A DNA stretch of 30,939 nucleotides from a virus. Shown here one piece after another: positions 4,852 to 30,939 of the stretch; the stretch's first letter is position 1, and each line of letters opens with the position of its first letter. The position numbers were made by a program, and so were the translations under genes. The notes beneath the pieces are model-generated. The model was not told where the DNA came from, made no database searches, and saw only the letters and a list, made by a program, of their open reading frames with translations. The DNA is taken from positions 1 to 30,939 of the IMG/VR virus record IMGVR_UViG_3300020180_000090, one strand, 5' to 3'.

Positions 4852-5337
4852 ATGAAGTTATCTCTACGTGCTATCGGACTCTACTCCTTATTACAAAAGC
4901 CTAAATACATGGCTGAGATTATTGAGTTAACAACAGATATGGAGACGGCAGTCATCGGGGCTTTCAATGAGTTAGTAAAGAACAAGAGAGGTGTGCTCCT
5001 CAACGACATGTACTACGCTACAGAAGAACACGGGTCCATGGAGCTAAAAGAGAGGTTCCATAAGCTTTTCGTTATGACTCGGACATACGCGATTATACTG
5101 TGGTGGTATGAGGAACTTATCGAAACACTGGGGTATAATATAGACTTCGGGGACGATCATAATATGAGAGAGATGGTGGAGCGTGAGTACGCTACAGCAA
5201 GAGAACTCTCATACAAAACAACCGACCAAGACCTATATGAATCTTTCAAAACTATGGCGAAAAATATGGACAAGGACGAGAAGACTATACCTCGTCTGTC
5301 TGGATTGTTTGACTACTCCAAGAGAATTGACAGGTAG
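4852..5337 (+). CDS. Putative winged-helix DNA-binding protein
   Basis: 161 residues from the ATG at 4852, chosen over an in-frame GTG at 4804 because the latter lies inside the predicted leader hairpins. Residues 1-50 (MKLSLRAIGLYSLLQKP, then a helix with ELTTDMETAVIGAFNELVKNKRG) resemble the winged helix-turn-helix at the N-terminus of phage replisome-organiser and related regulators. The rest is helical and charged with no enzyme motif. Its end overlaps the following HNH endonuclease frame. A regulator acting with that endonuclease is possible; the match is modest. Confidence 0.45.
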   Translation: MKLSLRAIGLYSLLQKPKYMAEIIELTTDMETAVIGAFNELVKNKRGVLLNDMYYATEEHGSMELKERFHKLFVMTRTYAIILWWYEELIETLGYNIDFGDDHNMREMVEREYATARELSYKTTDQDLYESFKTMAKNMDKDEKTIPRLSGLFDYSKRIDR

Positions 5338-5950
5338 TCCAGGAGCTGGACTACGAAAGAACATCGATGATATCACTTCGAACGTACTGACGAACAAGCA
5401 ACTAGGTTCGCATATCGAGAGAATAACAAACAACTTTTACTCAGAGATTGCAAATCAGCTCGCAGTGCTCTCGTGGGACCTGTTCAACAGGACCCATAAC
5501 AGAGAAGTCGTGACTAAGTTTATGGATATAGCCTACTCTCTCGAATGCGAGTGGCGAGCTGTACACGTGAAAGAGTTACTATTCTGCAGACTGGTTAACC
5601 CAGATTCTTTAGATACGGTAGACTTCATGGAGATATACACACTGGACAGTAAGTACGCCTCCATGTTTGTGAAGCAATTGAAGTCGCTGCCTTATCGTGA
5701 GTACCTCACCACAAGTTATTGGAAAGCTATCCGTAGACGTATGCATCGGATATACAATGGTAAGTGTGCACACTGTGAAGAAACACAGCACTTAGAGGTA
5801 CACCACATGTGTTACAACTTCCTCGGTGAAGACCACCTACACCTTGATAACCTCATTGTCATGTGCAGGGCACATCACCAGCGATTCCACGATATTGATA
5901 ACATGAAGAAGCAGGTAAAAGAAAAGAAGTGGGGCAAGGTGGGGCAATAG
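5327..5950 (+). CDS. HNH endonuclease (uncertain start)
   Basis: The C-terminal third carries a clear HNH nuclease with a zinc knuckle: SYWKAIRRRMHRIYNGKCAHC, LEVHHMCYNFLGEDHLHLDNLIVMCRAHHQRFH. It would cut DNA as a homing-type enzyme. The open frame extends back to an ATG at 5183, but residues encoded upstream of about 5325 look like an out-of-frame reading of the preceding gene. No ATG lies at the boundary; TTG at 5327-5329, 6 bp before the upstream TAG, is the likeliest start. It could also be reached by a +1 shift from the previous gene, or a sequencing error may split one gene. A roughly 125-residue helical region precedes the HNH domain and is not recognised. Confidence 0.7.
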   Translation: MTGSPGAGLRKNIDDITSNVLTNKQLGSHIERITNNFYSEIANQLAVLSWDLFNRTHNREVVTKFMDIAYSLECEWRAVHVKELLFCRLVNPDSLDTVDFMEIYTLDSKYASMFVKQLKSLPYREYLTTSYWKAIRRRMHRIYNGKCAHCEETQHLEVHHMCYNFLGEDHLHLDNLIVMCRAHHQRFHDIDNMKKQVKEKKWGKVGQ

Positions 5951-7365: not shown

Positions 7366-7950
7366 ATGTTGTACCATAACCATCAAAAAACAAGTTTAAG
7401 TATTGAGGTGCAGTGTAAAGCCTGTTCTACAATTTTCTATACAGTAAAGTCTAAGCAAGAAAGAGTTAAGTACTGCTCTAAGGCATGTAAGTTTCAAGGT
7501 ATCCCCTTAGAGGAAAGGTTCTGGAAAAAGGTAGATAAAACAAGTACCTGCTGGTTATGGACTGGAGCTAAAGTGAACAACGGATATGGTGTGGTAGCAA
7601 ACAAATACTCAAATATAAGAGCTCATGTGTATTCATATGAACTAGAAAATAAGGTTAAAGTTCCTAAGGGGATGCTTATATGCCACAAGTGTGACGTACC
7701 GTCCTGTGTGAACCCTGACCATTTGTTTATGGGTACGTCACAAGACAACTCGGATGACATGATCAAAAAAGGTAGAAAAGCTGTTGGTGTTGCTACTAAT
7801 AGGGCTAAGCTAACACCGAGTAGTGTTAGGAGTATGCGTAAGATGGTATCAAAAGGAATGTCTGACATTTCTATCTCTAAGGTGTTTAATGTTTCATCTG
7901 GGACAGTCTGGCAAGTTAAAAACAATAATGTGTGGAAACACGTAACATAG
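7366..7950 (+). CDS. Free-standing HNH homing endonuclease with zinc finger and HTH
   Basis: 194 residues. A zinc site C17-x2-C20 with C37-x3-C41 is followed by the HNH_3-type core at about 60-135 (CWLWTGA, RAHVYSYEL, LICHKCDVPSCVNPDHLFMG, DNSDDMIKKGR). A C-terminal helix-turn-helix at 150-190 (VRSMRKMVSKGMSDISISKVF) ends in KNNNVWKHV, typical of intron-encoded and free-standing homing nucleases, where it aids site recognition. The gene sits between adaptor and nozzle genes, with 12 bp and 1 bp spacing, as if inserted without disrupting them. A CATAAT box ends 6 bp before its ATG, so it may have its own near-leaderless promoter. Confidence 0.9.
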   Translation: MLYHNHQKTSLSIEVQCKACSTIFYTVKSKQERVKYCSKACKFQGIPLEERFWKKVDKTSTCWLWTGAKVNNGYGVVANKYSNIRAHVYSYELENKVKVPKGMLICHKCDVPSCVNPDHLFMGTSQDNSDDMIKKGRKAVGVATNRAKLTPSSVRSMRKMVSKGMSDISISKVFNVSSGTVWQVKNNNVWKHVT

Positions 7951-19151: not shown

Positions 19152-19640
19152 TTATGCGACCCTTCCGAAGTCTCCGTGATGTTGCTTGCTCCCCTCTTTG
19201 TACAGCTCGTGAGCTTCTTCTGCGGTTGGTCGTGTTCCGAGGTGGATTACCTTACCATTAAGGCATATTTTTGCAATGAAGCCTTTTCCATTTCGGAAAA
19301 CACCCTTGTATCCTGTGGTGTTGGTAGTCTGCATTCCTCTGTTCATGTTGTTTTGAGATGTCGTGCATAAACGTAAATTGGAGCGTTGATTGTTGAGAGT
19401 GTTATTGTCGATATGGTCGACTATTTGTCCTTTCTGTGCGTTCATAATGGCTCTGTGGAGTTTTACTGTTGCCCGTTTGCCATTGATAGTAACATTTCGT
19501 AACACTCTGAAACAGTTTCTGTCCCAAGATGCGTACCAGTTATACTGATTCAACTCCTCGTACATGTCGTCATCTACCATAGCGAATTGTCCTTGCGTGA
19601 GCTGTATAAGTTTCATAGCTTTATTCCGCATTAACCCCAT
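19152..19640 (-). CDS. HNH endonuclease with AP2-type DNA-binding domain
   Basis: 162 residues. The conserved opening KLIQLTQGQFAMVDDDMYEE, then NWYAS, leads to the HNH core (KLHRAIMN, IVDHIDNNTLNNQRSNLRLC) and a C-terminal AP2-like beta domain (GYKGVFRNGKGFIAKICLNG, then LGTRPTAEEAHELY). This is a common free-standing mobile nuclease of phages and bacteria. The ATG at 19640 follows the upstream TAG by one base; an internal ATG eight codons later is where family similarity begins and may be the real start. Confidence 0.88.
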   Translation of the reverse strand: MGLMRNKAMKLIQLTQGQFAMVDDDMYEELNQYNWYASWDRNCFRVLRNVTINGKRATVKLHRAIMNAQKGQIVDHIDNNTLNNQRSNLRLCTTSQNNMNRGMQTTNTTGYKGVFRNGKGFIAKICLNGKVIHLGTRPTAEEAHELYKEGSKQHHGDFGRVA

Positions 19641-24428: not shown

Positions 24429-25250
24429 ATGCAAGATAAATTTTTGAATGGTCAATACGGGATCGAATTTGAGATGATAAAAAAAGTGAGTGAGCGTATT
24501 GGTAATGGTAAATACTTTACCCATTGCGGGGACGGTTCAATTAGTGGTTGCGACAGTGGCGAGCATGGTATCGAATATAAAACTAGAATACTTGACGGGA
24601 CAAAGTGGCACGTTGTCAAGCGGTTTCTGAATCGGTGCAAAACTGCAGTGGTCAACAGGTCAACAGGTTTGCATATCCATTTCGGTATACATGATAGACT
24701 AGATCACGATGAGCGAGTTGTAACACTTGACAGGTTCGAGTTACTAGTACAATTTATCGTAAGGCATGAAGATTTAATATTTTCACTAGTACCAAAGTCA
24801 AGGCGTAACAATAAATACTGTAAAAGTATGAAGCCAATAGTTACTGGTATATGTGCTAGATGTAATGGCACTGGTGACTGTGAGCGTGATAGTGATGAGG
24901 ATTGTGATTGTGATTGTGACTGCACATGTAATGATTCAATACTTGAAAAGTGGACGGGTAGCAGGTATTACTGGGTCAATATTCAAAATGTACCACAACA
25001 CCATAATGCGCATATTGAAGTGAGACTACACAGCGGGACGTTGTCATATATAAAAACAAAATACTGGCATGACTTGATGTATAAATTTTTACAATATGGA
25101 TATTATCACCCATATATGCATTTCAAATCACTGCATGATATGTTGGACGGGTTGGACATTGACAAGGTACAGCAGTTGCACTGGTATCAGAGACGGGACA
25201 TGTTTAACAGTGGTCAAGTGGTATCGAATAGCGATACCGAGATAGAATAA
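24429..25250 (+). CDS. Amidoligase (COOH-NH2 ligase, glutamine-synthetase-like fold)
   Basis: 273 residues matching the Amidoligase_2 pattern: YGIEFEM (10-16) with metal-binding acids, DGSI with later HGIEYKTRIL (47-55), STGLHIHFGI (78-87), and WVNIQNVPQHHNAHIEVRLHS near 182-202. Family members use ATP to join a carboxylate to an amine and are found with peptide- or cell-wall-modifying genes. An insertion at about 141-167 carries CARCNGTGDC and a run of Asp-Cys pairs (DCDCDCDCTC), a possible metal site, encoded by a GATTGT-type tandem repeat. The stop is 1 bp before the amidotransferase ATG. The cassette lies between the candidate origin and AT-rich DNA, so it looks inserted. Confidence 0.8.
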   Translation: MQDKFLNGQYGIEFEMIKKVSERIGNGKYFTHCGDGSISGCDSGEHGIEYKTRILDGTKWHVVKRFLNRCKTAVVNRSTGLHIHFGIHDRLDHDERVVTLDRFELLVQFIVRHEDLIFSLVPKSRRNNKYCKSMKPIVTGICARCNGTGDCERDSDEDCDCDCDCTCNDSILEKWTGSRYYWVNIQNVPQHHNAHIEVRLHSGTLSYIKTKYWHDLMYKFLQYGYYHPYMHFKSLHDMLDGLDIDKVQQLHWYQRRDMFNSGQVVSNSDTEIE

Positions 25251-25251
25251 T

Positions 25252-26241
25252 ATGTGTGGCATAATTTCTAACTTTTATCACAAACCGATTGACGGGAAGG
25301 ATAACAAGGCTATCATTGCAAAACAATATTACAAACAGCAGTCACGGGGAACGCAAGGGGCTGGATATATTGTAATAGATAACGATAACAAAATACATGT
25401 ACATCGAGACAGCAACAACACAAACGCATTGATACAACTAGCAAAATATGAATATGTGAAGGCATGTATTTTTCACCATAGGTTCCCGACAAGTACCGAT
25501 AATATTGCACAGTGTAGTCACCCGATACATGTATCAATAAAGGGACTTAAATATGATTACTATGTGGTACATAATGGCGTCATAAATAATGATGATGCAC
25601 TGAAACTGGTTCATAATAAAGAAGGTATTGTATATAATACCGAGCACGTCCAGGTGGACGGCACAACGTACACGTTTAACAATGGTGATACATACGAATC
25701 CAACAGTGACAGCACACGATACAATGATAGCGAGGGCATAGCGATAGAGTATGCACGATTGATCGAAAATAAAGTTACAACACTTGAGCATGTTACAGGT
25801 AGCTATGCACTCATGGCGGTACAGGTTGACAGGAAGACAAAGAAGGCGGTTGCGGTATATAGTTATCGTAACAGTTTGAACCCATTGAAGTTATCGGGTG
25901 ACTACGTGTTTTCACTAGCTAGTGAAAATACAGGGACTGATATAGTTGCTGGACGGTTATACACTTGCGACATGCAAGGCGTGATTACTGATAGGCTGGT
26001 AATTGAATACTTGCCCGTCACGTCGCAAGCTGGTTTCTATAAGGGGACGACAAGTACCACGTACATGGGTACATTGCCATGGACTGATGATGATGAAGAG
26101 TATAATGCACCATATAGTGAGATGGCTGATTATGACAAACTAGATGCACTGTATGACGAATTCAAGCGAGCCAAGACCAGGGCGGACACAAAGCGTATAA
26201 AGCGTGAGATTGATACACTGGAGGCAGTACTGTGGCGGTAG
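25252..26241 (+). CDS. Class II glutamine amidotransferase (Ntn-type)
   Basis: 329 residues beginning MCGI, so C2 becomes the N-terminal nucleophile after Met removal. HHRFPTSTDN (75-84), SHPIHV (89-94), YYVVHNGVINN (103-113) and GSYALMAV complete the class II glutaminase domain, which releases ammonia from glutamine. No SIS or asparagine-synthetase domain follows; the last 100 residues end in a charged coiled coil (YDEFKRAKTRADTKRIKRE) and may dock a partner. Placed 1 bp after the amidoligase, it probably supplies ammonia to it or remodels an amide. Such pairs were predicted from comparative genomics; the substrate is unknown. Confidence 0.85.
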   Translation: MCGIISNFYHKPIDGKDNKAIIAKQYYKQQSRGTQGAGYIVIDNDNKIHVHRDSNNTNALIQLAKYEYVKACIFHHRFPTSTDNIAQCSHPIHVSIKGLKYDYYVVHNGVINNDDALKLVHNKEGIVYNTEHVQVDGTTYTFNNGDTYESNSDSTRYNDSEGIAIEYARLIENKVTTLEHVTGSYALMAVQVDRKTKKAVAVYSYRNSLNPLKLSGDYVFSLASENTGTDIVAGRLYTCDMQGVITDRLVIEYLPVTSQAGFYKGTTSTTYMGTLPWTDDDEEYNAPYSEMADYDKLDALYDEFKRAKTRADTKRIKREIDTLEAVLWR

Positions 26242-26284: not shown

Positions 26285-26488
26285 TATGTATGTGATATCG
26301 CACAATGTAATAAAAACGATATGCGAAGCGGATAGGAGATGTTAAAAGGCAGTTTTACTTTCTCTTTGACTTCTTCTCCTCACAATAAAAAATTTACCAA
26401 AATTTTTCAACGCTTGACCAATTTTCTCGCAAAAAAAAAAAATTTTACACGAAGTTTTATTTTTGCTTAACGGGGGTTAATTGCTTGA

Positions 26489-26526
26489 TCGCACGAAGTG
26501 CGTGCAGTCTCGCACGAAGTGCGTGC
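26489..26526. repeat. Tandem 17-bp hairpin repeat
   Basis: TCGCACGAAGTGCGTGC occurs at 26489-26505 and 26510-26526 (21-bp period). Each copy folds GCAC-GAA-GTGC (triloop). Two-turn spacing suits cooperative protein binding. Confidence 0.85.
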
Positions 26527-26550
26527 CCTCTATTTCACTTTTGCCGAGTT

Positions 26551-26579
26551 TTTGAGCTAACGTACCTCTATGGTAGTAT
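26551..26579 (+). promoter_or_regulatory. Promoter of the packaging operon
   Basis: TTTGAG (26551-26556), 17-bp spacer, TAGTAT (26574-26579), ending 7 bp before the chosen ATG at 26587: a near-leaderless transcript. Confidence 0.5.
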
Positions 26580-26586
26580 ATGGTAC

Positions 26587-27063
26587 ATGTTATCCCCGTA
26601 TTCAGACAGGAACTCAGTCGGACTCTCCCAACAAGTAGCTGACATTATGCAATTAGATGAAAAGACGAGCGAAGCTCTGTTTTTCCTCTGCGATAATATG
26701 TCGACTGCAGGTCATGGAGAGACATTCCAAGACATATACGACTTTGTACTCACCGTACACCCCAAGATTAACTCGAAGAGGTTATTTGAGTCATACGAGA
26801 AGTATTTTCAGCTGCGCTTGGCGAAGCAAGCGTTGGAGAAAAGTCTTGAACAGGGCAACGCAAGTGTTATCAAGAAAGCCCTAGATGACCTAGAGTCGTT
26901 CAATATCAACCCACCAGACCAGATCGTTACGGATACACTAACGGACCAGCAGGAACAGGTCCTCAGAGGCTATATGGACATGTTGGACAGTTACGAAGTG
27001 ATGTACAAGGACCTATATAAGGACCAGGAAGACCAAACCAAACCGGAAGTGTATGAGCTATAG
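26587..27063 (+). CDS. Putative small terminase subunit
   Basis: 158 residues from the ATG at 26587 (MLSPYSDRNSVGLSQQVADI); the frame stays open upstream but reads through the hairpin repeats, so the shorter start fits the promoter. The N-terminal region LSQQVADIMQLDEKTSEALF resembles an HTH-type DNA-recognition domain; the middle is helical (KRLFESYEKYFQLRLAKQAL) and the C-terminus acidic (DLYKDQEDQTKPEVYEL). Size, helical makeup and position directly before and overlapping the large terminase suggest the DNA-recognising subunit, but no family signature is decisive. Confidence 0.45.
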   Translation: MLSPYSDRNSVGLSQQVADIMQLDEKTSEALFFLCDNMSTAGHGETFQDIYDFVLTVHPKINSKRLFESYEKYFQLRLAKQALEKSLEQGNASVIKKALDDLESFNINPPDQIVTDTLTDQQEQVLRGYMDMLDSYEVMYKDLYKDQEDQTKPEVYEL

Positions 27064-29671
27064 CTCCTCGACGGAGTCGAGGGGTACTAGCCCCTCGACG
27101 GAGTCGAGGGGAAGTAGCTCTCAAGAAATAAAGATGGTAATTACTCTCCAGCAGGACTTAGTCGGGCTACTTCTCCGGTTGTCCAAGGAGCGTCCAGAAA
27201 TCCGTAGAGCGGTACTAGCTCACAAGACCTTTGGTCTTACACTCTACGCACTCATGTATCACACCGCGAAGCTCACCTACCCGTTCTCCAAGACCCATTT
27301 GAACTACCTGTATGACCTACAACGGCTACTCACACCAAGCCACCCACACTCCTTGTCTACCTTGTTGGTCATCGGAGGGAGAGCTCAAGCAAAAACCGCG
27401 TTAGCGGTGATTGCGATGGAGTTCTCGATAACGATGTCGCTCCAGAAGTACACGGTCATCACGGCTACAGATCCCCAGAACTCATCGGAATACTTGTATT
27501 CCATCAAGAACAACCTGCTCACCGATCCATACCTGAAGCGTGACTTTGGTGCTTTGATACCGACATCCCGAGTCAACCAAGACACCAAGGCGGTAAATCG
27601 ACAAAAAGCCCAGGACTTCATCGCTGAGAATCCTCTCCGATCTCGATTCGAAGCCATCTCTACCCAGCAATCTCTGAGAGGGCGTTTGTATGATGGTAGC
27701 AGAATCACGACGATTCTCTTGGATGACATCGAGACAATCACTACGGTACGTAGTGAAGTTATAACAAACCAAATCATCAATCAAGTCAAGGAGTCAGAGA
27801 ATGCGGTAGCAGACAATCACTCTATATTACTACTTGGTAACAAGCTCTCTAACTTCTCCAACGTCGCCCAGTTGGAGCGGAAGTACAAATCACTTCCACA
27901 CACCAAGATCATCAGGATACCGTTATACGACGATGACTATAAGATAATATGGGACACCAAGTTCGTACACAGTACCGAGGAAGCTAACCGACTCAACGAG
28001 AAGTACAAGGTGAACCTCCAGTCGGTCCAAGCTATCCGAGAGCGTAACGATAAGCTCACGTTCGCTGCGGAGCATCTTGCAAGTCCTCTCGATAACTTAC
28101 TAGCTATATTCAAACCAGAGATGTTCAGGCACCACCCAATAGAAGATTTGGAAAAGAACCACCATGATATTTCTTACATCTTCATATCTTTGGACACCGC
28201 AGTTACAGCAGAGACCAGTAGCGATAACACAGGAATTACCATTCGGTACCATAACCACACAACACCGAACAAGCACTATGTGCATACATATGGTGTGAAG
28301 TTGTTACCGGAACAGCTCTTTAATCACATCAAGAACATCTACACCACACTACGTGCAGACTTTCCAGAGGCAACGATTCAGGCAGGATGGGAAAAAACCA
28401 TGCAGACCCAGACATTAACGCAGTTCTGGGCCATCTACAGGAAGGAACACAACTTGGCGTTGCATATGTATGAGTTTGAGCACAAGTCGAAGAAGAAGGA
28501 GGATAGGATCCTGTCATCGTTGTTACATCGGTACGAGACGGGGAAGATGTACCATCTCACGCGAGAGAACAGGAACTTGTGCAAGGACCTAGAACAGGAG
28601 TTGGTGCTCTTCCCAGAGCTCAATAAAACGGATGACCTTTGTCTAGCAGGAGACACGTTGGTGGAGACAACGGTAGGTACGGTACGAATAGACGAAATCA
28701 CAACAAGCCATCAGGTTCTAACACGCAAAGGACCAAGACGAGTACTCTGGGCTGGTCAAACAGGGTGTCATCCAGTAATTACGAATATGGGAATTACGGG
28801 TACACCGAACCATCCAGTAATCACACAAGACGGAGTTAAGGAATTGAGATATGTCAGCGAGTCTGATATACTCTTCATATGGAACCAATCAAAGATGGAA
28901 GTAGAGAATATGTCATATACAAGGGTAAAAAATGGAACAGGTACCCTGAGTCTTCAAGAAAACATCTCAGGGTGTATTACACTCATCACTTCAATGCAGG
29001 GTCTCCAAGGGCACTACACAGAGAAATCTACGCAGACACACATGGAAAGATTCCTAAAGGTATGCACATCGATCATATCAACGGTAACCCACTGGACAAC
29101 AGGATTGAAAACTTGCAGTGCCTCACAAGTAAAGAACACAACAAGAAGACAAGGGAGCAAAACCCAGAATTCGTGGAGAAAATGCGTAAGTACAATTCAG
29201 ACAACCATGACAGACTCCACGAGGACCGCCAAGACTGGGCTAAGACAGCAGAAGGTAAAAAATGGTATACCGAGCATACAAAGCACAGCATACACAAACA
29301 GCGAGACATCATATGCAAATGGTGCTTTGTTAAGTGTGTTACCATCACATCAAACGGGAACTCATGCAGAAGTAGACCATGTCTACTTGCAAGAGGTCGA
29401 GACGAACAAAATAAGATACGAGCTAGACGAAGAGCTAGGGAGCAAGGTATATAACTTGACGATTGAGGGCGAGCATGAGTTTTTCGCTAATGGAATTTTG
29501 GTTCACAACTGTGACAGTTTGAGCTATAGCTTTGCACCTATCTTCGAGATGAAGTTGTCGTCTACGGACTGGGCAGAAATGATCGCAACATCTCCCAAGA
29601 GACAACGTGCACAAGAGACACAAAGCTTGTTTCAAAAAAGAGGAATTGACCTAGGTCGTCAAACACGATAA
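27053..29671 (+). CDS. Terminase large subunit precursor interrupted by an intein
   Basis: 872 residues; the spliced protein would be 582. It packages DNA into the head. The ATPase has a deviant Walker A, GGRAQAKT (108-115, Ala for the usual second Gly), and Walker B ILLDDIE (221-227). The nuclease has SLDTAVTAETSSDNTG (D381, D391). The last nuclease motif, TDDL-CDSLSYSF (the D-D-x-x-D-x-L-x-Y motif), is split by the intein at residues 530-819. The Ser-rich first 27 residues are encoded by a tandem hairpin; MVITLQQDLV at 27134 is an alternative start. It overlaps the upstream gene by 11 bp. Confidence 0.85.
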   Translation: MSYSSSTESRGTSPSTESRGSSSQEIKMVITLQQDLVGLLLRLSKERPEIRRAVLAHKTFGLTLYALMYHTAKLTYPFSKTHLNYLYDLQRLLTPSHPHSLSTLLVIGGRAQAKTALAVIAMEFSITMSLQKYTVITATDPQNSSEYLYSIKNNLLTDPYLKRDFGALIPTSRVNQDTKAVNRQKAQDFIAENPLRSRFEAISTQQSLRGRLYDGSRITTILLDDIETITTVRSEVITNQIINQVKESENAVADNHSILLLGNKLSNFSNVAQLERKYKSLPHTKIIRIPLYDDDYKIIWDTKFVHSTEEANRLNEKYKVNLQSVQAIRERNDKLTFAAEHLASPLDNLLAIFKPEMFRHHPIEDLEKNHHDISYIFISLDTAVTAETSSDNTGITIRYHNHTTPNKHYVHTYGVKLLPEQLFNHIKNIYTTLRADFPEATIQAGWEKTMQTQTLTQFWAIYRKEHNLALHMYEFEHKSKKKEDRILSSLLHRYETGKMYHLTRENRNLCKDLEQELVLFPELNKTDDLCLAGDTLVETTVGTVRIDEITTSHQVLTRKGPRRVLWAGQTGCHPVITNMGITGTPNHPVITQDGVKELRYVSESDILFIWNQSKMEVENMSYTRVKNGTGTLSLQENISGCITLITSMQGLQGHYTEKSTQTHMERFLKVCTSIISTVTHWTTGLKTCSASQVKNTTRRQGSKTQNSWRKCVSTIQTTMTDSTRTAKTGLRQQKVKNGIPSIQSTAYTNSETSYANGALLSVLPSHQTGTHAEVDHVYLQEVETNKIRYELDEELGSKVYNLTIEGEHEFFANGILVHNCDSLSYSFAPIFEMKLSSTDWAEMIATSPKRQRAQETQSLFQKRGIDLGRQTR
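27066..27111. repeat. Tandem 19-bp palindromic repeat at the terminase start
   Basis: CCTCGACGGAGTCGAGGGG at 27066-27084 and 27093-27111 (27-bp period, nine codons). Each folds CTCGAC-GGA-GTCGAG; the second copy has a 9-bp stem (27091-27111). In frame it encodes STESRG twice. No T-run, so not a terminator; it may control translation of the large subunit. Confidence 0.85.
28844..28872 (+). promoter_or_regulatory. Promoter inside the intein for the nested HNH gene
   Basis: TTGAGA (28844-28849), exact 17-bp spacer, TATACT (28867-28872), each box one base from the sigma-70 consensus. The -10 ends 6 bp before the ATG at 28879, predicting a transcript starting at that ATG. The HNH frame has a TGA at 28864-28866, so read-in from upstream is blocked. 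Confidence 0.65.
28879..29454 (+). CDS. HNH homing endonuclease nested in the intein in another frame
   Basis: 191 residues, wholly inside the terminase/intein gene but in the -1 frame relative to it. Residues 10-45 (EYVIYKGKKWNRYPESSRKH, then FNAGSPRALHREIYADTHG) lead to the HNH core KGMHIDHINGNPLDNRIENL, then KEHNKK (60-90; H66, N74, H87). A Cys set follows at 146, 149, 153 and 163. After about residue 163 the frame reads out-of-phase intein C-terminal DNA and ends RARRRAREQGI. It should cut intein-less terminase genes to spread the element. Own promoter, (T)CATATG start; no read-through from upstream is possible. Confidence 0.85.
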   Translation: MEPIKDGSREYVIYKGKKWNRYPESSRKHLRVYYTHHFNAGSPRALHREIYADTHGKIPKGMHIDHINGNPLDNRIENLQCLTSKEHNKKTREQNPEFVEKMRKYNSDNHDRLHEDRQDWAKTAEGKKWYTEHTKHSIHKQRDIICKWCFVKCVTITSNGNSCRSRPCLLARGRDEQNKIRARRRAREQGI

Positions 29672-29683
29672 CATGTAACTTAT

Positions 29684-29995
29684 ATGACCAAATCAATGAA
29701 CAAACAAATAACCATCGCAATAGACGATATCGTACTACCATCACAATCATTACTACTGGAGCCTATTTTTATCGAGACTGCAATAGAGGTGGAGGATACA
29801 AATGGTGACAAGAGCATTCAGATGCAACAGCAACCTCAGGACCTGTTTAAGGTACTCAAGGTGGCGGATGACGTAACACAACGAGGAACACATGTGTTCG
29901 CTAGAGTATTCATGCCAGATGTGGTGCAGCTAGGTGAGCAGAGGTACTGTTTCCTTGATGCTGTGGGTATCCTGGGGTGGGCGACAGAGGAGTAG
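29684..29995 (+). CDS. Small protein between terminase and portal, GroES-like in outline
   Basis: 103 residues, starting 12 bp after the terminase stop. MTKSMNKQITIAIDDIVLPS, then LLLEPIFIETAIEVED, a variable acidic loop, and FKVLKVADDVTQRGTHVFAR followed by EQRYCFLDAVGILGWA. The order of a beta strand, an expansion loop, 'VxxGxxV' and a final 'eYxflxexdIL' strand recalls GroES-type co-chaperonins, which some phages carry for head assembly. The match is weak; it could equally be a small head protein of unknown function. Confidence 0.45.
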   Translation: MTKSMNKQITIAIDDIVLPSQSLLLEPIFIETAIEVEDTNGDKSIQMQQQPQDLFKVLKVADDVTQRGTHVFARVFMPDVVQLGEQRYCFLDAVGILGWATEE

Positions 29996-29997
29996 GT

Positions 29998-30288
29998 ATG
30001 GTGCCTATCTACAGGGAGACACTGAGAGGGAAGCTTTGCAGAGGACAACACAAATGGAGAAATACGAGGCACGACACCTCTGCAGTGGTGGTGGTGTGTC
30101 GAGAATGTAAGTCAACACTGAAGTGTGCAATCAACGATGCGAACATACCTATGTTGCATCTCAAGAAATACTTTGGGCATGAGTTGGACCAGCACACGAA
30201 GAGATATCACAGGCACAACAACTTAACACAGGAAGCGGAGGAGAGACTAAACGCTTCCATACAGGATAACAAACAAACTATACTATAA
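29998..30288 (+). CDS. Small zinc-binding protein
   Basis: 96 residues from the ATG at 29998, 2 bp after the upstream stop. C16 and H20 (LCRGQHKW) with C36-x2-C39 (VVVCRECKSTL) make a possible zinc site. The rest is helical and His/Lys-rich (FGHELDQHTKRYHRHNNLTQ). It lies between the terminase and portal genes and may be an assembly or packaging accessory. No family recognised. Confidence 0.5.
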   Translation: MVPIYRETLRGKLCRGQHKWRNTRHDTSAVVVVCRECKSTLKCAINDANIPMLHLKKYFGHELDQHTKRYHRHNNLTQEAEERLNASIQDNKQTIL

Positions 30289-30290
30289 GT

Positions 30291-30939
30291 ATGAACCCTC
30301 TCAAAAAACTAGCAGCGATGACCAATAGTATTTTCTCTCCGATAAACCGAGCACGTACGCAGGTTATCGATGGTGCACTGGACGGTGAGGAGCACGCACT
30401 ACAGATACTTCCAAGCGACTCAACGAAGGACAAGGAGTTACTAGAGCTATCACAAACATGGATGGACTCGTACAACAACTACCAGTCTAAGATAACCAAT
30501 CGGCAGGAGGCGAACTATAAGTATTGGAAAGGTACACAGCAACCGATGTACACGGAGAACGTGGACACGAGACGTCGTGTGGCGTCTAACATGATATTTG
30601 AGGCTACAGAGACATTCTTACCTGCAGCGACTAAGAACAACCCGGAATGTTACGCGACCATCGAGGATGAGTCAGAGGAGGCACAACGGTACACATCTCT
30701 TCTCAAGGATTTACTGAACCAGCAAGGAAAGCGACATGGGTTGAAATTCAAAATTCGGGACGCTACTAGAGGGTGGCTTTTTGACCTTATCGGGGTAATA
30801 GGTATTTCATGGTCAATGGCGCTAGACGATTTTGAGGTACAGAAGATAGAGGCGAAACGAATGATATTTGATGTGGAGGGGTATATCGACTGGGATGGTT
30901 CTTTCCAGGGTAGGTACTTGGGATACATACGAACAATGC
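30291..30939 (+). CDS. Portal protein, N-terminal part (runs off the right edge)
   Basis: 216 codons are visible. The start MNPLKKLAAMTNSIFSPINR is followed by an acidic helical stretch (WMDSYNNYQSKITNRQEANY), then RRVASNMIFEATETFLPAATKNNPECYA, the 'r.s.N.if...et..p.l.s.nP' motif typical of podovirus portal proteins, and a beta region GWLFDLIGVIGISWSM. The portal is the dodecameric ring for DNA entry and exit. Position two genes after the terminase agrees. A TATACT box ends 6 bp before the ATG, so it may have its own promoter. The C-terminal part is outside the window. Confidence 0.7.
   Translation, partial: MNPLKKLAAMTNSIFSPINRARTQVIDGALDGEEHALQILPSDSTKDKELLELSQTWMDSYNNYQSKITNRQEANYKYWKGTQQPMYTENVDTRRRVASNMIFEATETFLPAATKNNPECYATIEDESEEAQRYTSLLKDLLNQQGKRHGLKFKIRDATRGWLFDLIGVIGISWSMALDDFEVQKIEAKRMIFDVEGYIDWDGSFQGRYLGYIRTM

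Follow-up and report, generated by a model that had tools for sequence, protein, structure and literature searches.

The question raised by this locus is whether an intein can hold a homing endonuclease in a reading frame other than its own, with splicing and mobility encoded in two frames of the same DNA. The window analyzed here is the virus record IMGVR_UViG_3300020180_000090, taken at its whole length of 30,939 nt. A preliminary description of this DNA had reported intein blocks in the terminase frame and an HNH core in the -1 frame at 28879-29454, and we recovered both: a complete class-1 intein with a predicted Hint fold is present, and the -1 frame contains an ORF that matches HNH_3 (PF13392, 4.4e-18). 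The features of the locus are the following:

27053..29671, plus strand: ORF of the terminase large subunit with the intein in frame; 872 aa, single ORF
28640..29509, plus strand: class-1 intein, 290 codons, from C1 to H-N, with the +1 Cys at 29510
28640..28891, plus strand: N-terminal part of the Hint domain, blocks A and B, intein residues 1-84; pLDDT about 96-98
28831..28872 (approximate), plus strand: putative leaderless promoter, sigma-70-like TTGAGA-N17-TATACT with extended -10 TGA, proposed from sequence and comparison
28864..28866, plus strand: TGA stop of the HNH frame, 12 nt 5' of the ATG, excluding read-in
28879..29454, plus strand: nested HNH endonuclease ORF, 191 aa, ATG start, -1 (= +2) frame, HNH_3 match
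28892..29440, plus strand: middle of the intein in the terminase frame, residues 85-267, stop-free; low-confidence structure prediction
29441..29509, plus strand: C-terminal part of the Hint domain, blocks F and G

The terminase frame matches phage TerL (phrog_38, 1.8e-29). Its match to Intein_splicing (PF14890, 2.5e-7) is weak and falls under the Pfam gathering cut-off for the window protein alone; the same family is matched by 41 of 45 relatives, the best at 3.8e-27. The bounds of the intein were taken from the sequence (C1 at 28640, TPNH as the TxxH motif, H-N at 29504-29509, +1 Cys at 29510), and all class-1 residues are in place, i.e., C1, the block B TxxH, the C-terminal N, and C, S or T at +1. 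The insertion site (NKTDDL^CDSLSYS) appears to lie in the terminase's C-terminal nuclease motif. Using alignments made without rows from annotated phage records, AlphaFold2 predicted the Hint fold confidently at residues 1-84 and about 268-291, with pLDDT of 93-98 across most of the Hint parts and about 40-50 in the middle of the intein, which is probably unstructured filler, predicted to be disordered. The closest solved Hint structure is that of the gp41-1 intein (6qaz; sequence profile 1e-20, fold 3.7e-5).

The product of the nested frame has an HNH_3 domain whose His/Asn and cysteine pairs are conserved (H, N and C columns of the alignment) and a confidently predicted fold (mean pLDDT 92), for which the best match, I-HmuI (1u3e), is weak (E 0.06). 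One of two C-terminal zinc-finger-like cysteine sets, present in most of the first six relatives, is absent from the window protein. The TAA stop of this gene falls in the block F codons (Tyr-Asn), and the TGA at 28864-28866 is the stop by which the preliminary description had excluded read-in. There are three more HNH-like genes in the window, at 5183-5950, 7366-7950 and 19152-19640 (minus strand), the latter two matching HNH_3 and the first having no Pfam match from 5330 on; the contig seems rich in homing endonucleases. Elsewhere, 24429-26241 contains an Amidoligase_2 gene (PF12224, 1e-10) followed by an ORF that starts with MCGI and has a weak class-II glutamine amidotransferase match, together a possible peptide-modifying pair.

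The layout is not peculiar to this virus; it is widespread, with more than 100 diverse viral relatives. We searched viral contigs separately with the intein and with the HNH, and then scanned them with home-made profiles; the scan of the genome collection used a 6-row HNH alignment. The yield was 160 inteins in 128 clusters (85% nucleotide identity), and the HNH is present in 127 clusters (<85% nucleotide identity), in every one at the same -1 offset. The intein-based search leans toward the nested layout, since DNA that is similar as HNH is similar in the intein frame too; unbiased counts were therefore taken from the HNH-based search, which is neutral as to frame. In that search, Hint N and C lie in one ORF with the HNH at -1 in 65 of 80 loci; one locus is split, five have only the N half recognized (one at +1), nine are free-standing or other, and none of the 80 has the HNH in frame. 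Closure of the terminase frame across the HNH in homologs, named in the preliminary description as evidence that would count against it, was looked for, and the frame is open in 127 non-redundant relatives; the zero stops are partly by construction, because Hint N and C were required to share one ORF, whereas the null model for the window (see below) and the HNH-based survey are independent of this requirement. Since the layout recurs in so many assemblies, a sequencing artifact involving a pair of indels is not expected.

The host ORFs, in a sample of 45, are nearly all large terminases, while some match DegT aminotransferase, anaerobic ribonucleotide reductase or helicase families. Named carriers include Acinetobacter phage Highwayman, Tetrasphaera phage TJE1 and Rhodobacteraceae phage LS06, in whose records the separate HNH gene is unannotated; bacterial contigs carry the nested layout as well, e.g., Frankia sp. 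AgB32. Three cases have another offset than -1 (L170, L275 and the first intein of L131, which has a different HNH type). This additional, unrelated intein of L131 (L131:1105-1980) sits at the P-loop of the terminase and carries a NUMOD4-like HNH in the +1 frame; the locus also holds a -1 nested intein. Two nested-HNH inteins each are found at L081, L097, L147 and L149, and in L207 and L214 a tandem pair of HNH profile matches lies inside one nested frame. The window itself is without a close relative (top HNH identity 41% over 124 columns), and its placement on the HNH tree is unsure.

The anatomy of the nested gene is stereotyped among the relatives. The HNH starts a median of 254 nt into the intein, directly past the Hint N-domain, with ATG in 119 of 127 cases; 88 of 126 starts draw on the TGG of a Trp codon of the intein. 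A stop closes the HNH frame a median of 12 nt 5' of the start, and only 2 of 127 are open back into the extein. At the other end, the HNH gene terminates at block F, most commonly where the intein frame reads Tyr-Asp or Tyr-Asn.

An open terminase frame across a foreign gene calls for comparison to an expectation. The HNH coding sequence of the window has 18 sites (a codon xTx before an A- or G-initial codon) at which a terminase-frame stop could occur. When its own synonymous codons were shuffled, 5.9 stops were expected versus 0 observed (P0 = 5e-5); with genome codon usage, 7.2 were expected and 0 of 20,000 recodings were open. The earlier estimate that chance would leave the frame open with a probability of about 0.0005 was conservative. 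By comparison, the equivalent frame is interrupted by 9, 12 and 17 stops in the three other HNH genes of the window. Among the relatives, a null that preserves the HNH protein and codon usage predicts 2.6 stops per locus in the intein frame, and the third frame carries 18.6, so that the -1 offset needs the fewest stop removals.

The two-frame comparison of constraint proposed in the preliminary description gave a consistent result. Substitutions in the overlap peak at position 3 of the HNH codons in 21 of 21 independent pairs, and in the same pairs and the same DNA the amino acid identity is 0.67 in the HNH frame versus 0.45 in the stop-free intein frame; the Hint N-domain alone has the usual third-position pattern in its own frame. 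By these patterns, the HNH frame is under purifying selection. The overlap thus evolves as HNH while the intein frame is kept open; over the shared DNA, the constraint on the intein frame is mainly the avoidance of stops.

Presence and absence were compared in the relative L120. Its 807-bp element is missing from nine contigs (L224-L232) whose flanks match those of L120 at about 85-91% identity; the empty sites show a zero-gap junction, exactly between CAT and TGY, and L233-L235 hold the element. These empty sites indicate that gain or loss of the elements is precise. No empty site was found for the lineage of the window itself, which is without a close relative. Acinetobacter phage BP10 was rejected as an empty-site relative of Highwayman, the terminases not being close homologs. 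In BP10, EauM-23 and Poludnitsa, HNH relatives outside recognized inteins adjoin terminase genes; such neighborhoods would be expected had the gene moved into the intein as a unit, an order of events that we infer.

How the nested gene may be started is suggested by the arrangement TTGAGA-N17-TATACT-N6-ATG, in which the -10 box ends 6 bp before the HNH ATG. This gap would place the transcript start at or beside the ATG. The extended -10 TGA doubles as the 5' in-frame stop of the HNH frame. As the null model, the intein protein was fixed and its codons were recoded (126 loci, 300 nulls). A -10 box 4-8 bp before the start was found in 24 of 126 loci versus 9 expected, 23 of the 24 at exactly 6 bp; an extended -10 (TGn) was found in 20 of 126 versus 4.3 expected (maximum of 9 in 300 nulls). 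Of the 24 carriers of a -10 box, 13 also have a -35 that matches at 5/6 or better, versus about 18% in the null. Shine-Dalgarno (SD) motifs precede the start in 41 relatives versus 25 expected. The -10 box and SD occur together in only one locus (Fisher p = 5e-4), and a clear -10 and SD are both absent in 63 of 127 relatives. The sisters L070 and L080 have SD where L115 has TTGACA-N16-TATACT; the promoter label is scattered over the HNH tree, one clade containing 13 of the 24.

These comparisons suggest that the HNH of the window is probably made from a leaderless transcript of an internal sigma-70 promoter. The leaderless promoter of the preliminary description thus gains comparative support from the recurrent 6-bp spacing, whereas most relatives use other signals, often SD. 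It should be noted that the promoter could be a chance match, with the HNH started through the long terminase transcript or by weak internal initiation; half of the relatives have neither signal, and the -10 overlaps codons of the common residues D-I-L. Because of the -10 excess over a null that keeps the protein, the spacing fixed at 6, the near exclusion between -10 and SD, and the -35 excess, we regard this possibility as unlikely, though one to be taken seriously.

We consider it very probable, judging by the sequence comparisons, that the locus is a mobile intein with an overprinted homing endonuclease, splicing and mobility being encoded in two frames. The terminase frame encodes a Hint splicing domain that is interrupted, where endonucleases usually insert, by about 180 filler codons, and once the whole protein is translated, the intein would excise itself along with the filler. 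In the -1 frame, the DNA of the filler is an entire HNH gene that has a start and a stop of its own and would be translated independently, probably leaderless from the promoter within the Hint N-domain codons in the window and from SD in many relatives. The HNH would cleave terminase genes without the intein in co-infecting phages, and the element would be copied as a whole into the cut gene during repair. The separate encoding of splicing and mobility, suggested in the preliminary description, is thereby borne out by the relatives, the substitution patterns, the avoidance of stops and the empty sites in a relative.

Several other readings were weighed against this one. The intein may splice while the HNH mainly serves the terminase as a DNA-packaging helper and not as a homing enzyme; most hosts are large terminases, free-standing relatives adjoin terminase genes, and HNH proteins beside terminases have been reported as packaging components (cited in PMC12613952; HK97, PMC10448857). 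This is improbable, given that nearly identical phages lack the element at the precise site and that some hosts belong to the aminotransferase, reductase and helicase families named above. More doubtful still is a fusion of the HNH, without a start of its own, to the N-part of the intein by programmed -1 frameshifting. The offset of the main family, always -1, would fit such a fusion, but -1 is also the offset that needs the fewest stop removals; the closure of the HNH frame so near an almost universal ATG leaves little room for a slip site, the frame rarely opens back into the extein, and promoter or SD motifs precede the start above expectation. The 5' stop in the HNH frame likewise makes frameshift or read-in fusion unlikely. 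We give the least credence to a decayed intein, in which a once in-frame HNH was shifted by indels and both parts are remnants: canonical inteins do hold the endonuclease in frame at the same point, but the HNH is under purifying selection in its own frame, the splicing residues are intact in 124 of 127 relatives, and a single constant offset is kept over a deep tree in which no in-frame members were found.

The overprinted intein resembles several known systems in part. Group I introns with internal endonuclease ORFs, including the 'genes within genes' of T4, likewise express a mobility gene independently inside a splicing element; here, however, splicing would be at the protein level, so that the overlapping frame must stay open. 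A group I intron with an ORF was ruled out by the open terminase frame and by the lack of any Rfam match in 26400-30939. With inteins that have an in-frame endonuclease (LAGLIDADG or HNH), the locus shares the Hint domain, the insertion point, the functional motif of the host and the precise empty sites, whereas its endonuclease, with its own start and stop, is in another frame and the filler is predicted to be disordered; it is thus not a canonical homing intein. Fractured genes with split inteins, reportedly described by Dassa et al. in 2009, are said to have an endonuclease gene between the halves. They share with the window a separate endonuclease gene at the split point, and the closest Hint here is that of gp41-1; by contrast, the host gene of the window is a single ORF, which excludes this class, and splicing would be in cis. 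In MIJ3, an endonuclease gene lies between the halves of a split intein (PMC6892783). The terminases of CL2 (Lactobacillus), Vibrio 1.238.A and a Staphylococcus borealis contig also look split within the intein, with the HNH between the halves, and that of Brochothrix BL3 is perhaps likewise split, its HNH being unconfirmed; annotated records list separate genes at these loci (L221, L219, L273 and L216, respectively).

The closest published case found is the ShiLan insertion. The ShiLan domain and Pacc40 are out-of-frame HNH insertions in phage DNA methylases, for which the authors report neither splicing motifs nor the fold of an intein (PMC11855218). As here, the HNH is out of frame and the host frame is open, leaderless translation has been proposed, and the ShiLan HNH carries zinc-finger motifs (PMC11855218); in contrast, a complete Hint intein encloses the window HNH, and its motifs exclude a ShiLan-type insertion. 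Thus, the statement of the preliminary description that no equivalent was known stands for true inteins, although out-of-frame HNH genes have been published for this non-intein element. We found no account of an out-of-frame endonuclease in a splicing-competent intein in the searchable literature, which leaves out most subscription papers; a preprint on actinobacteriophage inteins with 'non-canonical architecture' (10.1101/2025.01.02.630785), outside that literature, may contain one. In contrast to collaborative homing (described in PMC10448857), the endonuclease and the splicing element form one unit here; the free-standing HNH relatives beside terminase genes are a plausible source.

On balance, we favor the view that a large and ancient class of mobile elements has gone unrecognized, namely overprinted inteins, in which the splicing domain and the endonuclease share DNA in two frames, codons of the Hint N-domain would double as a leaderless promoter or ribosome-binding site, Hint codons would supply the start and stop of the endonuclease, and nesting would have arisen in the other offset as well (L170, L275 and the other L131 intein). 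The relatives offer more than 100 natural overlapping gene pairs for measuring dual-frame constraint, and cis-inteins that tolerate about 180 arbitrary residues are of practical interest. The layout connects nested inteins with fractured genes whose inteins are split, and it suggests that endonuclease genes enter inteins whole, with their own signals included, in a frame that can stay open. Splicing would be parted from mobility inside the intein while the host gene remains uninterrupted, and the endonuclease could therefore have another timing and level of expression than the terminase gene.
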